DNA from: Alphaproteobacteria bacterium
GTDB taxonomy: Bacteria; Pseudomonadota; Alphaproteobacteria; UBA8366; Aestuariispiraceae
DNA length: 64,000 nucleotides
Direction: 5' to 3'
Assembly: GCA_024743195.1 (NCBI GenBank)
Contig: JANSXE010000003.1
Span: 372,001-436,000 of the forward strand
This document shows, one piece after another, positions 1,112 through 5,993 of this stretch; position 1 is the first letter of the stretch, and every line of letters begins with the position of its first letter. Under the pieces are notes generated by a model that saw only the letters and a program-made list of their open reading frames with translations, was not told where the DNA came from and did not search any database. The translations under genes were made by a program, and so were the position numbers.

Positions 1112-2986
1112 ATGTGCGGAATCGCAGGATTCGTGGGGAGCGGCGACCGGCGCGATCTGGAAGCAATGACCGACGCTCTTGTTCATCGCGGTCCTGATGC
1201 GTGCGGCTACCATGTTGATCCGTCGCGCCGCCTCCATTTCGGGCATCGGCGTTTGTCGATCCGCGATTTGTCCGGCGGCGGCCAACCGATGTGGAGCCGC
1301 GATGGCGCGCTTTGCGTGATCTACAACGGCGAGATTTTCAACTTCGAGGAATTGCGTGCGCAACTGGAAGCGGCGGGCCATCGCTTCGAGACGAGCCATT
1401 CCGACACCGAGGTTCTGATTCACGGCTACAGGGAGTGGGGCGAGGGGGTTGCGGAACGGCTCAACGGCCAGTTCGCGTTCGCGATCTTCGATAGGGGGCG
1501 GGAGCGGCTGTATCTGGCGCGAGACCGTTTCGGCGAAAAGCCGCTCTATTACGCCGCTCGTCCTGATCTGTTCGCTTTCGCCAGTGAATTGAGCGCGCTT
1601 GCGAAACACAGTGATGTGAAGACGGAGATGTCGCAACGCGCGCTGCAGAAATTGTTTGCCTACGGGTATCTGCCGGCTCCGAACGCGCTCTATCACGGCA
1701 CTGCGAAACTGCCCGGCGGACACTTTATGACGGTCGATCTTCGATCCCTTTCCATGGAGATCAAACGCTATTGGCGCTTTTCGCTCGAGCCGGACGAGGC
1801 GATGGCCGCGCGCGGCGAAGACGCCCTGGCGGAGGAACTGCGCGGGCTCCTCGTTCAGGCGGTCGAACGGCGGTTGGTGAGCGATGTTCCGATCGGCGTC
1901 TTCCTCAGCGGAGGGGTCGATTCCAGCGGCATTCTCGCCGCCGCGGCCACGCGTGCGCCGGCCAAGACCCTGCGAAGCTTCACCATCGGATTCCAAGAAC
2001 CGTCCTATGACGAGTCCGTCTACGCCGCTCAGGTCGCCGAACATGTCGGGTCCCATCATGCGCAGCGCGTTCTGACGCTGGATCAAGCGCGAGACCTCAT
2101 CCCATCGGTACTGGGACGATTGGACGAGCCGTTGGGTGACGCGTCGATCGTTCCGACCTATATGCTGAGCGCCTTCACCAGGGAGCATGTCACTGTCGCC
2201 CTGTCAGGCGACGGCGGCGACGAGATGTTCGCGGGCTACGACCCCTTTCTCGCCCTGAAGCCGGCTGCGCTCTACAGCCGGTTCGTGCCGAAACCATTGC
2301 ATCGCGTCTTCCAGCATCTGGCCGAGATGCTGCCGAAATCGAGCCGGAACATGAGCCTCGATTTCAAGCTGCGCCGGACGCTGGGGGGATTGTCCTATCC
2401 TGAATCCGCCTGGGCTCCGGCCTGGATGGCCCCGCTGGACCCCCGCGATGCAGCGGATCTCTTCGAGGAACCGCTGCGTCCCGAGGATCTCTACAGTGAG
2501 GCGATGGAGCTCTGGGAAACCGGTCCCGCCAAGGGGCGCGTCGATCGTCTGCTGCAGTTCTTCACCCAACTCTATCTCCAGGACGACATCCTGACCAAAT
2601 CCGACCGAGCCAGCATGATGGTGTCGCTTGAGTCGCGTGCGGTCTTCCTGGACAACGATTTGGTCGAGTTCTGCCAGCGCTTGCCGCATCGCTTCAAGCT
2701 TCGAGACGGGCAGCGCAAATACCTGCTTAAGAAGGCGTTGGAGCCGCTCTTGCCGCATGACATCGTGCATCGCCGGAAGAAGGGATTCGGCATTCCGCTG
2801 GCCGACTGGATGCGTGAGGCGCCCGCCCGCCCGCCAATGGAGCCGACCCCTGGCGTTTGCGTGCCTTGGGCGGAGAAGGCCTGGGCGGCGCACCGCGCCG
2901 GCCGCTCCGACCATCGTCTTTTCATGTGGACTTGGTGGAGCGTGCAGACCGCCCTTCGCGATCACACCGCGGCGGCCGCGGCTTAG
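1112..2986 (+). CDS. asnB: asparagine synthase (glutamine-hydrolysing) family amidotransferase
   Basis: The 624-residue protein starts MCGIAGF, so after Met removal Cys2 is the nucleophile of an N-terminal class II glutaminase domain (NGEIFN and HRGPDA motifs are present). The C-terminal synthetase domain carries the PP-loop SGGVDSS at about residues 266-272 and the LSGDGGDEMFAGY and TKSDRASM segments. The family transfers ammonia from glutamine to an adenylated carboxylate, either aspartate or, in polysaccharide loci, a sugar acid. Its place between a polyprenyl-type glycosyltransferase and a run of methyltransferases argues for glycan modification rather than, or besides, asparagine synthesis. 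The start is fixed by the need for Cys2. Confidence 0.9.
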   Translation: MCGIAGFVGSGDRRDLEAMTDALVHRGPDACGYHVDPSRRLHFGHRRLSIRDLSGGGQPMWSRDGALCVIYNGEIFNFEELRAQLEAAGHRFETSHSDTEVLIHGYREWGEGVAERLNGQFAFAIFDRGRERLYLARDRFGEKPLYYAARPDLFAFASELSALAKHSDVKTEMSQRALQKLFAYGYLPAPNALYHGTAKLPGGHFMTVDLRSLSMEIKRYWRFSLEPDEAMAARGEDALAEELRGLLVQAVERRLVSDVPIGVFLSGGVDSSGILAAAATRAPAKTLRSFTIGFQEPSYDESVYAAQVAEHVGSHHAQRVLTLDQARDLIPSVLGRLDEPLGDASIVPTYMLSAFTREHVTVALSGDGGDEMFAGYDPFLALKPAALYSRFVPKPLHRVFQHLAEMLPKSSRNMSLDFKLRRTLGGLSYPESAWAPAWMAPLDPRDAADLFEEPLRPEDLYSEAMELWETGPAKGRVDRLLQFFTQLYLQDDILTKSDRASMMVSLESRAVFLDNDLVEFCQRLPHRFKLRDGQRKYLLKKALEPLLPHDIVHRRKKGFGIPLADWMREAPARPPMEPTPGVCVPWAEKAWAAHRAGRSDHRLFMWTWWSVQTALRDHTAAAAA

Positions 2987-2999
2987 GAGGGGCGGGGGC

Positions 3000-3791
3000 G
3001 TGGAGCAGGCTGTTTATGCGGCCGAAGCGGCGCTTGAGGAGCGTCACTGGTGGTTCGTCTGCCGCCGCCGTCTGTTCGCGCGCGAACTGGCCCGCGCGGG
3101 CGTCGCCAAGGATGCGGCCATGCTGGATGTTGGCACGAGCACCGGTACGAATCTACGCATGCTGCGCGACGCCGGCTATCACGATGTGACCGGCCTCGAT
3201 ATGAGCGACGAGGCCATCCGCTATTGCCGGGACAAGGGCCTGGGCGACGTGCGCAAGGGCGATATCTGCGCCATGCCGTTCCCGGACGCGCGTTTCGATG
3301 CAGTGCTCGCGACCGACATCGTGGAGCATGTCGATGACGACGCAGCCGCCCTGGCGGAGATCCGGCGCGTGCTGAAACCAGGCGGTCTCGCTCTACTGAC
3401 CGTCCCGGCGTTCGAGCAGCTCTGGGGCGCCCAGGACGACCTGTCGCATCACAAGCGGCGCTATCGCTTGCCGCGCTTCTGCGCCCTGGTCGAAGAAACG
3501 GGCCTAGAAGTCGAGCGACGCTACCACTTCAACTACCTGCTGTTCGCGCCGATCTGGCTCGCCCGACAAATCATCCGGCGCTCGGGCGCAACGCGGCGCA
3601 GTGAGAATCACATTAACGCGCCCGGCCTGAACGAACTGCTGACCTTGCTGTTCGAGATCGACTGCCGTACGGCGCCGCTGGTGCGCCCGCCGTTCGGAGT
3701 ATCGATCCTCGTCGGGGCGCGAGAAAATACGATGCCGGTCCACCGAAACGGAGCCTCTCATGAACGACAAACTGCGCACACAGACCATTGA
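3000..3791 (+). CDS. class I SAM-dependent methyltransferase (intact paralog of the relic at 4809-4994)
   Basis: A GTG start at 3000 is preferred to the long upstream open frame because an AGGAGG Shine-Dalgarno sequence sits at 2985-2990, overlapping the asnB stop. This gives 263 residues. The SAM-binding motif I is MLDVGTSTGTNLRML (about residues 41-55), followed by TGLDMS, an acidic DIVEHVDD motif and RVLKPGG (motif III). It resembles Methyltransf_11 enzymes of polysaccharide and small-molecule loci. The last 31 bases overlap the next gene. Its C-terminal segment SENHINAPGLN...RPPFGVSILV is repeated in decayed form about 1.2 kb downstream, so the present C-terminus beyond that point may be a rearrangement product. 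Confidence 0.85.
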   Translation: MEQAVYAAEAALEERHWWFVCRRRLFARELARAGVAKDAAMLDVGTSTGTNLRMLRDAGYHDVTGLDMSDEAIRYCRDKGLGDVRKGDICAMPFPDARFDAVLATDIVEHVDDDAAALAEIRRVLKPGGLALLTVPAFEQLWGAQDDLSHHKRRYRLPRFCALVEETGLEVERRYHFNYLLFAPIWLARQIIRRSGATRRSENHINAPGLNELLTLLFEIDCRTAPLVRPPFGVSILVGARENTMPVHRNGASHERQTAHTDH

Positions 3792-4569
3792 GGACTTCGG
3801 CGACCAATGGACGCGTTACCAAGACAATGAAGGATACTACGGTTCGGTCGAACTGCTGCGCGACATCCTCGAACCCCTGACGCCGCTGGAGAGCGTTCGG
3901 GGGCAAACCGTCGCCGAAATTGGCAGCGGCACCGGCCGAATTGTTCAAATGCTCCTAGACGCAGGCGTTTCTCGGATCACTGCATTGGAACCTTCCAAGG
4001 CGATGGACGTGCTGCGGGCGAACACTGTCGAGAAGAGCGACCGCATTCGTTACGTCCAAGCGAGGGGCGAGCAGTTGCCGAGCGATCAGCCCTTTGATTT
4101 TGTGTTTTCCATCGGCGTCTTGCATCACATCCCGGATCCCGCACCGGTCGTGCGAGCGGCCCACCGCGCCCTCAAAGAGGAGGGGCGCATCGTGATTTGG
4201 CTCTACGGGAGGGAAGGCAATGGTCTCTACCTGGCTTTCGTACTCCCGCTGCGCAAATTGACGGCTCTGCTGCCGCATTCCTTGCTCACGCCGATCTGCC
4301 ATGTCCTGAACGCGGGACTTGGGGCATACATAGCGCTGGCGCGAATTGTCCCGGTGCCCCTGCGCGGATACATGACCGAGGTTATCGGAAATTTTTCAAC
4401 CAGTAAACGATACCTAGTGATATATGATCAACTTAAACCTGCATACGCCAAGTACTACAGGCGCGCCGAAGCGGAATCGCTTCTTGAGGAAGCGGGCTTT
4501 GTCGATGTCCGCTCTCATAATCGGCACGGATACAGTTGGACCGTCGTTGGGGTCAAAAAGGCGACGTAA
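3760..4569 (+). CDS. class I SAM-dependent methyltransferase
   Basis: The 269-residue protein has motif I VAEIGSGTGRIVQML (about residues 46-60), the acidic ITALEPS strand, FSIGVLHHIPDP and an ALKEEGRIVIWLYG strand typical of Methyltransf_11/25 enzymes. A hydrophobic stretch around residues 160-200 (rich in Leu, Ala and Pro) suggests a membrane-associated or lipid-like substrate. The ATG lies within the 3' end of the preceding methyltransferase and has GGAG a few bases upstream (3750-3753), so the two are probably co-translated. It is unlike its neighbour outside the Rossmann core. Substrate unknown. Confidence 0.82.
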   Translation: MNDKLRTQTIEDFGDQWTRYQDNEGYYGSVELLRDILEPLTPLESVRGQTVAEIGSGTGRIVQMLLDAGVSRITALEPSKAMDVLRANTVEKSDRIRYVQARGEQLPSDQPFDFVFSIGVLHHIPDPAPVVRAAHRALKEEGRIVIWLYGREGNGLYLAFVLPLRKLTALLPHSLLTPICHVLNAGLGAYIALARIVPVPLRGYMTEVIGNFSTSKRYLVIYDQLKPAYAKYYRRAEAESLLEEAGFVDVRSHNRHGYSWTVVGVKKAT

Positions 4570-4611
4570 CCTTCCGCCTGCGCAATCTACTCGGTTTGGA
4601 TCGGTCACCCC

Positions 4612-4810
4612 TAGAGCGGGATGATTTTTGACGGAATCGGGTTTTATAGATTCCAGGATGCGGCGAATAGTATTCACCATGGATGCTGGGAGAAGAGGCC
4701 AGCATGCATGACGCGGTCCTTTTCGATGGCTCTTCGCGAACGTGTCGTTTTGCGGTTGAGGCTGAGGCTGAGGCTGAGGCTGAGGCTGAGGGCTTGTCCC
4801 GTCGATAGGC
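4612..4810 (+). mobile_element. relic of the left end of an IS630-type insertion sequence
   Basis: The segment begins at a TAGAGCGGGATGA sequence, of the kind that forms outer ends of IS630-like elements, which insert at TA. About 90 bases on, the frame MTRSFSMALRERVV (from 4707) matches the usual N-terminus of IS630 transposases (DLRERVV). After a frameshift in a T-run at 4748-4751 a second frame reads AVEAEAEAEAEAEGLSRR, stop, AARR, which fits the family continuation AVE-G-GLSRRQAARR with CAG mutated to TAG and an expanded EA repeat. Only the first 40 or so codons remain. The element is dead and fused to the methyltransferase relic that follows. The IS family assignment is by memory of the motif and was not searched. 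Confidence 0.6.
4757..4791 (+). repeat. TGAGGC hexamer tandem repeat
   Basis: Five perfect TGAGGC units run from 4757 to 4786 followed by a partial sixth. Within the IS630-like relic they encode a run of Glu-Ala pairs where the transposase normally has a single pair. The repeat is best explained as slippage expansion in a non-functional gene. Confidence 0.9.
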
Positions 4811-4994
4811 GGCGCGCCGGCTGATACGGCTCTTGGGCGTGCGCGTTGCAAGCGAGAATCACATCAACGCTCCGGGCTTGAACGGTCTCCTGACGGCTCT
4901 GTTCGATCTCGATTGCCGCTTGGCGCCGATGCTTCGCCCGCCGTTCGGAGTATCGATTTTGGTCGTTGGAGAGCGCGGCCCGTCGGTCGAATGA
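4809..4994 (+). pseudogene. 3' remnant of a second methyltransferase, paralogous to the gene at 3000-3791
   Basis: Read from a stop codon at 4806-4808, the frame gives about 61 residues ending in TGA at 4992-4994. Its segment SENHINAPGLN...RPPFGVSILV is identical at 31 of 38 positions to the C-terminal region of the intact methyltransferase at 3000, and similarity extends upstream (ARRLIRLLG versus ARQIIRRSG). No start codon or SAM-binding domain remains. The two copies are direct repeats flanking the second methyltransferase and the IS relic, so this is either the original 3' end displaced by an insertion or the leftover of a deleted homologue. Confidence 0.85.
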
Positions 4995-5018: not shown

Positions 5019-5993
5019 TCAGCGCGATGTTGCGCGGGCGTCGACAGGTCTATTGACGGCCGTGAGAGCCCAGGACACGGACCCGGGAATGCACTGACCC
5101 AAGGTGCACGCGGCGAAGACTGCAGCGACCGCAGCCGCTTCTGCGGAGGGAGCGCCAAACAGCGTGAGCGTTGCGACGACGGCCCCTTCGCGCAAGCCGA
5201 ACCCCGCAAGGGTGATCGGAATCATCGCAGCCAACGTGGCGAGTGTTGTCGAGAGGATTGCGAGGTCGAGGCGCGCCAACTCCGTGGAAACCGACGCGAG
5301 CGAGAAGTACATGCTGGCGAAGATCGCAACTTGGACGGCGAGCGAGAGACCCAAGGCCGCCATGATCCGTGAGGGGCCCCGGAAGAGCCGGCGCACGATG
5401 TAGACCAGCCGCGCAAGGTGTCGATAGGCCCAATACCGCATCCAGTTTCGAGAAATCGGAAAGAGGTAGACGAAAACGAAGCCGAGCCCGACAGCCGCGG
5501 CGAGCCCCCAGACGACCCGTTGAACGCCCGGCTGGACGGTCGCGTTCACCGAGAGCGCCGCAGCGCACAGGGCGATCAAGACCAAGAGGCTGCAGAACCG
5601 GTCCGCCAGAACCGAACTGAGCACGTCCCAATAGCGCCCGCGAGCGTGGCCGAGTTTGTAAACCCGAAACACGTCTCCCCCGACCGAGCCCGGTAGCACC
5701 AGGTTTAGGGTCACCGCTTCCGCATAGATGCGCGCGCAGGTCCGCAGCGCGGCGTCGATGCGAAAGAACCTGAGGAAGACCTGCCAGCGATAGGCCGACA
5801 GGGCCACATTCACCCACATGGCCAGGACGCCGAGCAAGACGTATCCAGCATCTATTTCGCGGATGACGAGCAACAGCTCATTCGTGTCGATCATCCGCAC
5901 GATGAATAAAAGGAGGAAGACGGTCACCGCCGCCTTCGCGCCCAAGATCAAGACTTTGCGCTGAGCGTCGCTTGGCTTCGGCCAGCGCAGCAT
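5019..5993 (-). CDS. YbhN/UPF0104 family membrane protein (flippase-like, LPG synthase TM domain)
   Basis: The start chosen is the ATG at 5993, which overlaps the stop of the upstream methyltransferase as TGATG and gives 324 residues. The longer open frame upstream reads Arg- and Pro-rich shadow sequence. About eight hydrophobic segments are visible, and the signature LVLPGSVGGDVFRVYKLG near residues 90-110 is the PG-GGD motif of the lysylphosphatidylglycerol synthase TM region family (YbhN, AglD, MprF N-terminal half). Members are integral inner-membrane proteins often found beside GT2 glycosyltransferases and thought to move or hold lipid-linked substrates. A role in handling the lipid-linked product of this locus is inference. 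Confidence 0.82.
   Translation of the reverse strand: MLRWPKPSDAQRKVLILGAKAAVTVFLLLFIVRMIDTNELLLVIREIDAGYVLLGVLAMWVNVALSAYRWQVFLRFFRIDAALRTCARIYAEAVTLNLVLPGSVGGDVFRVYKLGHARGRYWDVLSSVLADRFCSLLVLIALCAAALSVNATVQPGVQRVVWGLAAAVGLGFVFVYLFPISRNWMRYWAYRHLARLVYIVRRLFRGPSRIMAALGLSLAVQVAIFASMYFSLASVSTELARLDLAILSTTLATLAAMIPITLAGFGLREGAVVATLTLFGAPSAEAAAVAAVFAACTLGQCIPGSVSWALTAVNRPVDARATSR

Follow-up and report, generated by a model that had tools for sequence, protein, structure and literature searches.

A fused IS630-family and methyltransferase gene remnant, most likely a product of genome decay, beside two intact methyltransferase genes in an alphaproteobacterium

The window analysed in this study is a 64-kb stretch of DNA that forms part of a 4.17 Mb genome (G000). 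Starting at position 87 is a gene that we take, from a reading of its protein, to be glycosyltransferase-like. This is followed by an asparagine-synthase-like gene (asnB), two methyltransferase genes (designated M1 and M2), a short relic and a convergent flippase-like gene (Table 1). Both methyltransferase genes appear intact, and the Pfam methyltransferase domain of M1 occupies residues 42-132 of its protein. The end of M1 and the start of M2 overlap by 32 nt, and M2 is separated from the convergent gene by 449 bp.

Table 1. Coordinates of the features at the locus, numbered from the first nucleotide of the window.
Feature	Position	Strand	Supporting observation
asnB-like gene	1112-2986		TIGR01536 above its cut-off (NCBIfam)
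M1, intact SAM-dependent methyltransferase, GTG start, 263 aa	3000-3791	+	Pfam Methyltransf_11, E 8.2e-24; 68% identical to Marivibrio halodurans M1
M2, intact second methyltransferase	3760-4569	+	Pfam Methyltransf_11, E 7.7e-19; 59% identical to the syntenic M. halodurans gene
Relic (IS630 piece and methyltransferase piece)	4612-4994	+	
IS630-family element, 5' end only (terminus, leader, first transposase codons)	4612-4820, right boundary approximate	+	80% identical to the G005 and G013 copies over 4611-4765
Hexamer TGAGGC, 5.8 copies, inside the transposase start	4757-4791	+	Tandem Repeats Finder
Junction zone, codons AARR, assignable to either parent	4809-4820	+	M1 relatives and IS630 relatives; role in the fusion inferred
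M1', 61-codon 3' end of a second M1-like methyltransferase, including its stop codon	4812-4994	+	69% identical to M1 residues 187-241, E 7.3e-18
Convergent flippase-like gene	stop at 5019	convergent	TIGR00374

The relic is composed of two pieces. The first of these has the left end TAGAGCGGGATGA, and its terminus and transposase start resemble those of IS630-family insertion sequences, with matching copies present in two genomes that belong to the same taxonomic family as the window (G005, E 4.8e-32; G013, E 4.9e-32). Assignment to the IS630 family rests on the G005 relative because the domain matches are those of its ORFs. Specifically, the N-terminal ORF of this copy matches Pfam HTH_Tnp_IS630 (E 1.1e-4, above the gathering score) as well as NCBIfam transpos_IS630 (below its cut-off), and the second ORF matches Pfam DDE_3 (E 2e-19). 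The likely right end of the G005 copy is located approximately 1.07 kb from its left end. Unlike such elements, this piece of the relic keeps only about the first 200 bases, and a search of the 64-kb window with up to 8 mismatches in 29 did not find the inverted right end. Insertion sequences of the IS630 family duplicate a TA target. The left-hand TA is seen at 4612, and the right end of the element has been lost.

What remains of the transposase is about 33 codons long and does not include the DDE transposase domain. MALRERVV and VEAEAEAEAEAEGLSRR-stop-AARR are encoded in different frames, and therefore the start of the gene carries both a frameshift (near 4749) and a nonsense codon (4806-4808). 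At the site of this stop codon, 8 of 15 IS630 relatives identified by tblastn encode Gln, where the 15 matches come from 8 genomes and several are copies within one genome. Between M2 and the left end of the element lie 42 bp that score 18 when compared with positions 2901-4569, whose score averaged 17.45 and reached at most 24 in 100 shuffles. The insertion sequence piece has no second copy in this genome, where the 34 other matches (E <= 10) are only 15-32 bases long, and we therefore rejected another copy in the same genome as its source.

The transposase start also contains a tandem hexamer array that encodes a long EAEAEA stretch, at a place where the 15 IS630 matches have only a few residues. 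The expansion of this hexamer looks like the result of slippage. A DNA pattern for the expanded repeat gave no match in 240 genomes; these include the genome of the window, whose frameshifted copy cannot fit the pattern, and this negative result therefore carries little weight.

The second piece of the relic, M1', shares with the M1-type methyltransferases encoded next to asnB the C-terminal region ending in PFGVS, and it can be aligned with seven homologues. Unlike M1, it is missing approximately 185 N-terminal residues, including the entire Pfam methyltransferase domain, and a search of this fragment for a SAM-binding methyltransferase domain gave no Pfam match at E <= 0.1. In the core that extends from SEN to SILV, the relic and M1 are identical at 31 of 38 residues (81.6%), or at 31 of 40 if two further columns are counted. 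The sequence-only reading that preceded this analysis had described an IS630-type transposase scar fused to a 61-codon methyltransferase 3' end that matches the gene at 3000, as well as the overlap of that gene with the next methyltransferase, and these observations are borne out. The same reading noted 145-bp direct repeats that bracket M2 and the insertion sequence remnant. The placement stands and the length is about right, given that the ungapped core spans 115 nt (3600-3714 versus 4851-4965, 79% identical) and a genome search extends the match to 142 nt (3573-3714 versus 4824-4965, 77%, E 1.8e-22). However, the two copies are pieces of genes, namely of M1 and its dead counterpart, rather than mobile-element repeats.

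Judged by residues, M1 is the nearest relative of the relic (31/40 identical), with lower values for locus L035 (24/40), for M. halodurans M1 (23/40) and for loci L036-L040 (16-20/40). Among 385 genomes of the class, the relic peptide matched 5 other genomes, and the best matches were 39-51% identical. M1 and the relic differ mainly by synonymous changes (dN 0.16, dS 0.77 over 40 codons), and therefore M1' had probably diverged as a working gene before its death. This pattern suggests that selection acted on both copies during most of their divergence, although 40 codons offer an indication and not proof. A simple recent tandem duplication was rejected on the basis of the same dS value. The dS between M1 and its L035 homologue is 0.57, which is below that between M1 and the relic. 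In a tree of 13 rows and 54 columns, 0 of 10 inner branches were well supported, and the relic and M1 were not joined by a supported branch.

The nearest genome available for comparison is that of M. halodurans, a member of the same genus (G001, NZ_JAGMWN010000001.1; locus L034/L015), which carries asnB, M1 and M2 followed by a convergent flippase-like gene, as is observed in the window. In that genome, the end of M1 falls in the same region and is followed after 31 bp by the start of M2, and a further 29 bp separate M2 from the end of the convergent gene. Thus the M. halodurans locus differs from the window in the shorter distance between M2 and the convergent gene, and also in that its syntenic locus has no second M1 end. 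The order of M1 and M2 is common to this nearest genome, which makes it unlikely that M2 is an insert. The alternatives for the extra 3' end are a gain in the lineage of the window and a loss in M. halodurans, and because the genus comparison comprises two genomes, the two are not firmly separable.

A broader search uncovered 23 loci, of which 7 (L034-L040) were compared in detail. The C-terminus was read in 19 of the 23, and L052, L053, L054 and L056 were omitted as partial matches; a stretch of G030 (L018) was set aside. The last ~22 residues of M1 (3723-3791), whose codons include the 32-nt overlap with M2, were not seen in the homologues read in this manner. In M. halodurans, the stop codon of M1 is located 31 bp upstream of M2, and the M1 gene of the window may have lost its old stop codon. 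When used as a query, the relic gave a single match per locus in 7 of the 7 loci compared in detail. Genes for asnB, M1 and an M2-like protein recur together in other Alphaproteobacteria: in L037 and L038, M1 is followed by a distant M2 (28% identical); in L036 and L040, which are two Acetobacteraceae contigs, the distant M2 (32-33%) is placed after asnB and before M1; and none was found within the DNA examined for L035 and L039. Yet of the 43 genomes of the order, just 2 contain M1 at E <= 1e-40, both in the genus of the window, and the combination hints at cassette transfer. Given the gene order in L036 and L040, M2 and M1' could be the older pair at the present locus and M1 the newcomer.

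At the junction of the two pieces, the codons for AARR can be assigned to either parent. On the methyltransferase side, the corresponding residues are AARRLI in L037, LARRLI in L038 and L039, LVRRII in M. halodurans, AARQ in L035 and LARQ in M1 itself. On the insertion sequence side, AARRF is present in 1 of 15 relatives (L079), and the rest carry near forms such as QAAFRF, QAAARF and SAAKRF. Moreover, the transposase reading frame runs into that of the methyltransferase, which would occur by chance in one case of three. Both the ambiguity of AARR and the continuous frame would be explained if a deletion had occurred between two similar stretches, although we do not consider this a strong inference because neither parent is intact at this locus.

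Taken together, we consider it probable that the relic is a scar without function, created when a second M1-like gene located after M2 and an IS630-family element beside it were reduced by a deletion that fused their two ends. In this scheme, the second gene, already diverged, would once have stood downstream of M2, having arisen there by duplication or having been imported as an allele of a relative. An IS630-family element would then have inserted at a TA between M2 and M1', and a later deletion would have left about the first 200 bases of the element and the last 61 codons of the gene, with the joining possibly occurring where both coded for similar residues, Ala-Ala-Arg-Arg or nearly so. 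In its favour, we count the well-matched 5' end of an IS630 element with no right end in the window and no second copy in the genome, the position of M1 as nearest relative by residues, the low identity of the best matches in the class, the excess of synonymous change, the different distances between M2 and the convergent gene in the two genomes and the single match per locus. Counted against it are the short homologous stretch (54 columns), the tree without a supported branch joining the relic to M1, the closer approach of L035 to M1 in dS, the placement of M2 before M1 in L036 and L040, the limit of two genomes for the genus and the failure of the 42 bp beside the element to resemble positions 2901-4569 better than shuffles do. 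The shared-codon idea is also weakened by the presence of exact AARR in just one IS630 relative and by the variation among M1 relatives.

An alternative account, which we regard as unlikely but deserving of consideration, is that M1' arrived already broken, such that the fusion with the IS630 piece formed elsewhere, in another strain or species, and was then inserted or recombined after M2. The divergence of M1' (dS 0.77), the restriction of M1 to two genomes of the order, which implies that such genes may move, and the lack of a recognised origin for the 42 bp to the left of the element are all consistent with this possibility, but the remnant lies beside the gene that is its nearest relative by residues, and a local event is the simplest account. 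More doubtful still is the idea that methyltransferase versions turn over beside M1, with a diverged allele gained, an IS630 insertion and a shared-codon deletion, as if this cassette exchanged methyltransferases among strains while the dead copy continued to recombine with the live one.

The sequence-only reading had suggested a different history, wherein M2 and the insertion sequence inserted into or next to one methyltransferase gene, leaving the relic as the old 3' end and giving M1 an acquired tail. Although the relic and the present 3' end of M1 resemble each other and stand on either side of M2 and the insertion sequence relic, and although the last ~22 residues of M1 were not seen in homologues, this history is very improbable. 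The stretch of M1 ending in PFGVS aligns in 7 of the 7 nearest homologues (in L040 in another frame), M. halodurans has asnB, M1 and M2 in the same order and an M1 whose end falls in that region too, L037 and L038 likewise place a distant M2 after M1, and none of the relatives compared has a single methyltransferase gene that ends in relic sequence. The more general suggestion that the locus was rebuilt by duplication or insertion may hold if it is taken to mean the gain of a second M1-like gene and its subsequent loss. Equally improbable is the proposal that the remnant of 61 codons has been retained for a use, such as donating sequence in gene conversion of the 3' end of M1 or encoding a small protein, for although its codons are free of internal stops and the two copies share an identical run of up to 23 nt (3684-3706), this run is not significant (it was reached in 5.6% of 10,000 shuffles) and sits on the conserved motif RPPFGVSI, and the frame starts behind a stop codon.

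The relic is thus most likely an insertion sequence stub and a pseudogene end fused by deletion, which is a known kind of genome decay, and nothing found in these comparisons appears to point to a function for it. As such, its significance extends little beyond annotation: the relic can be annotated as decay, and M1 and M2 as intact genes that are neighbours in M. halodurans as well. Neither the C-terminal region of M1 nor M2 need be read as acquired through an insertion sequence, and the relic is possibly a small case in which the end of such an element and the end of a gene were fused where both encode similar residues.
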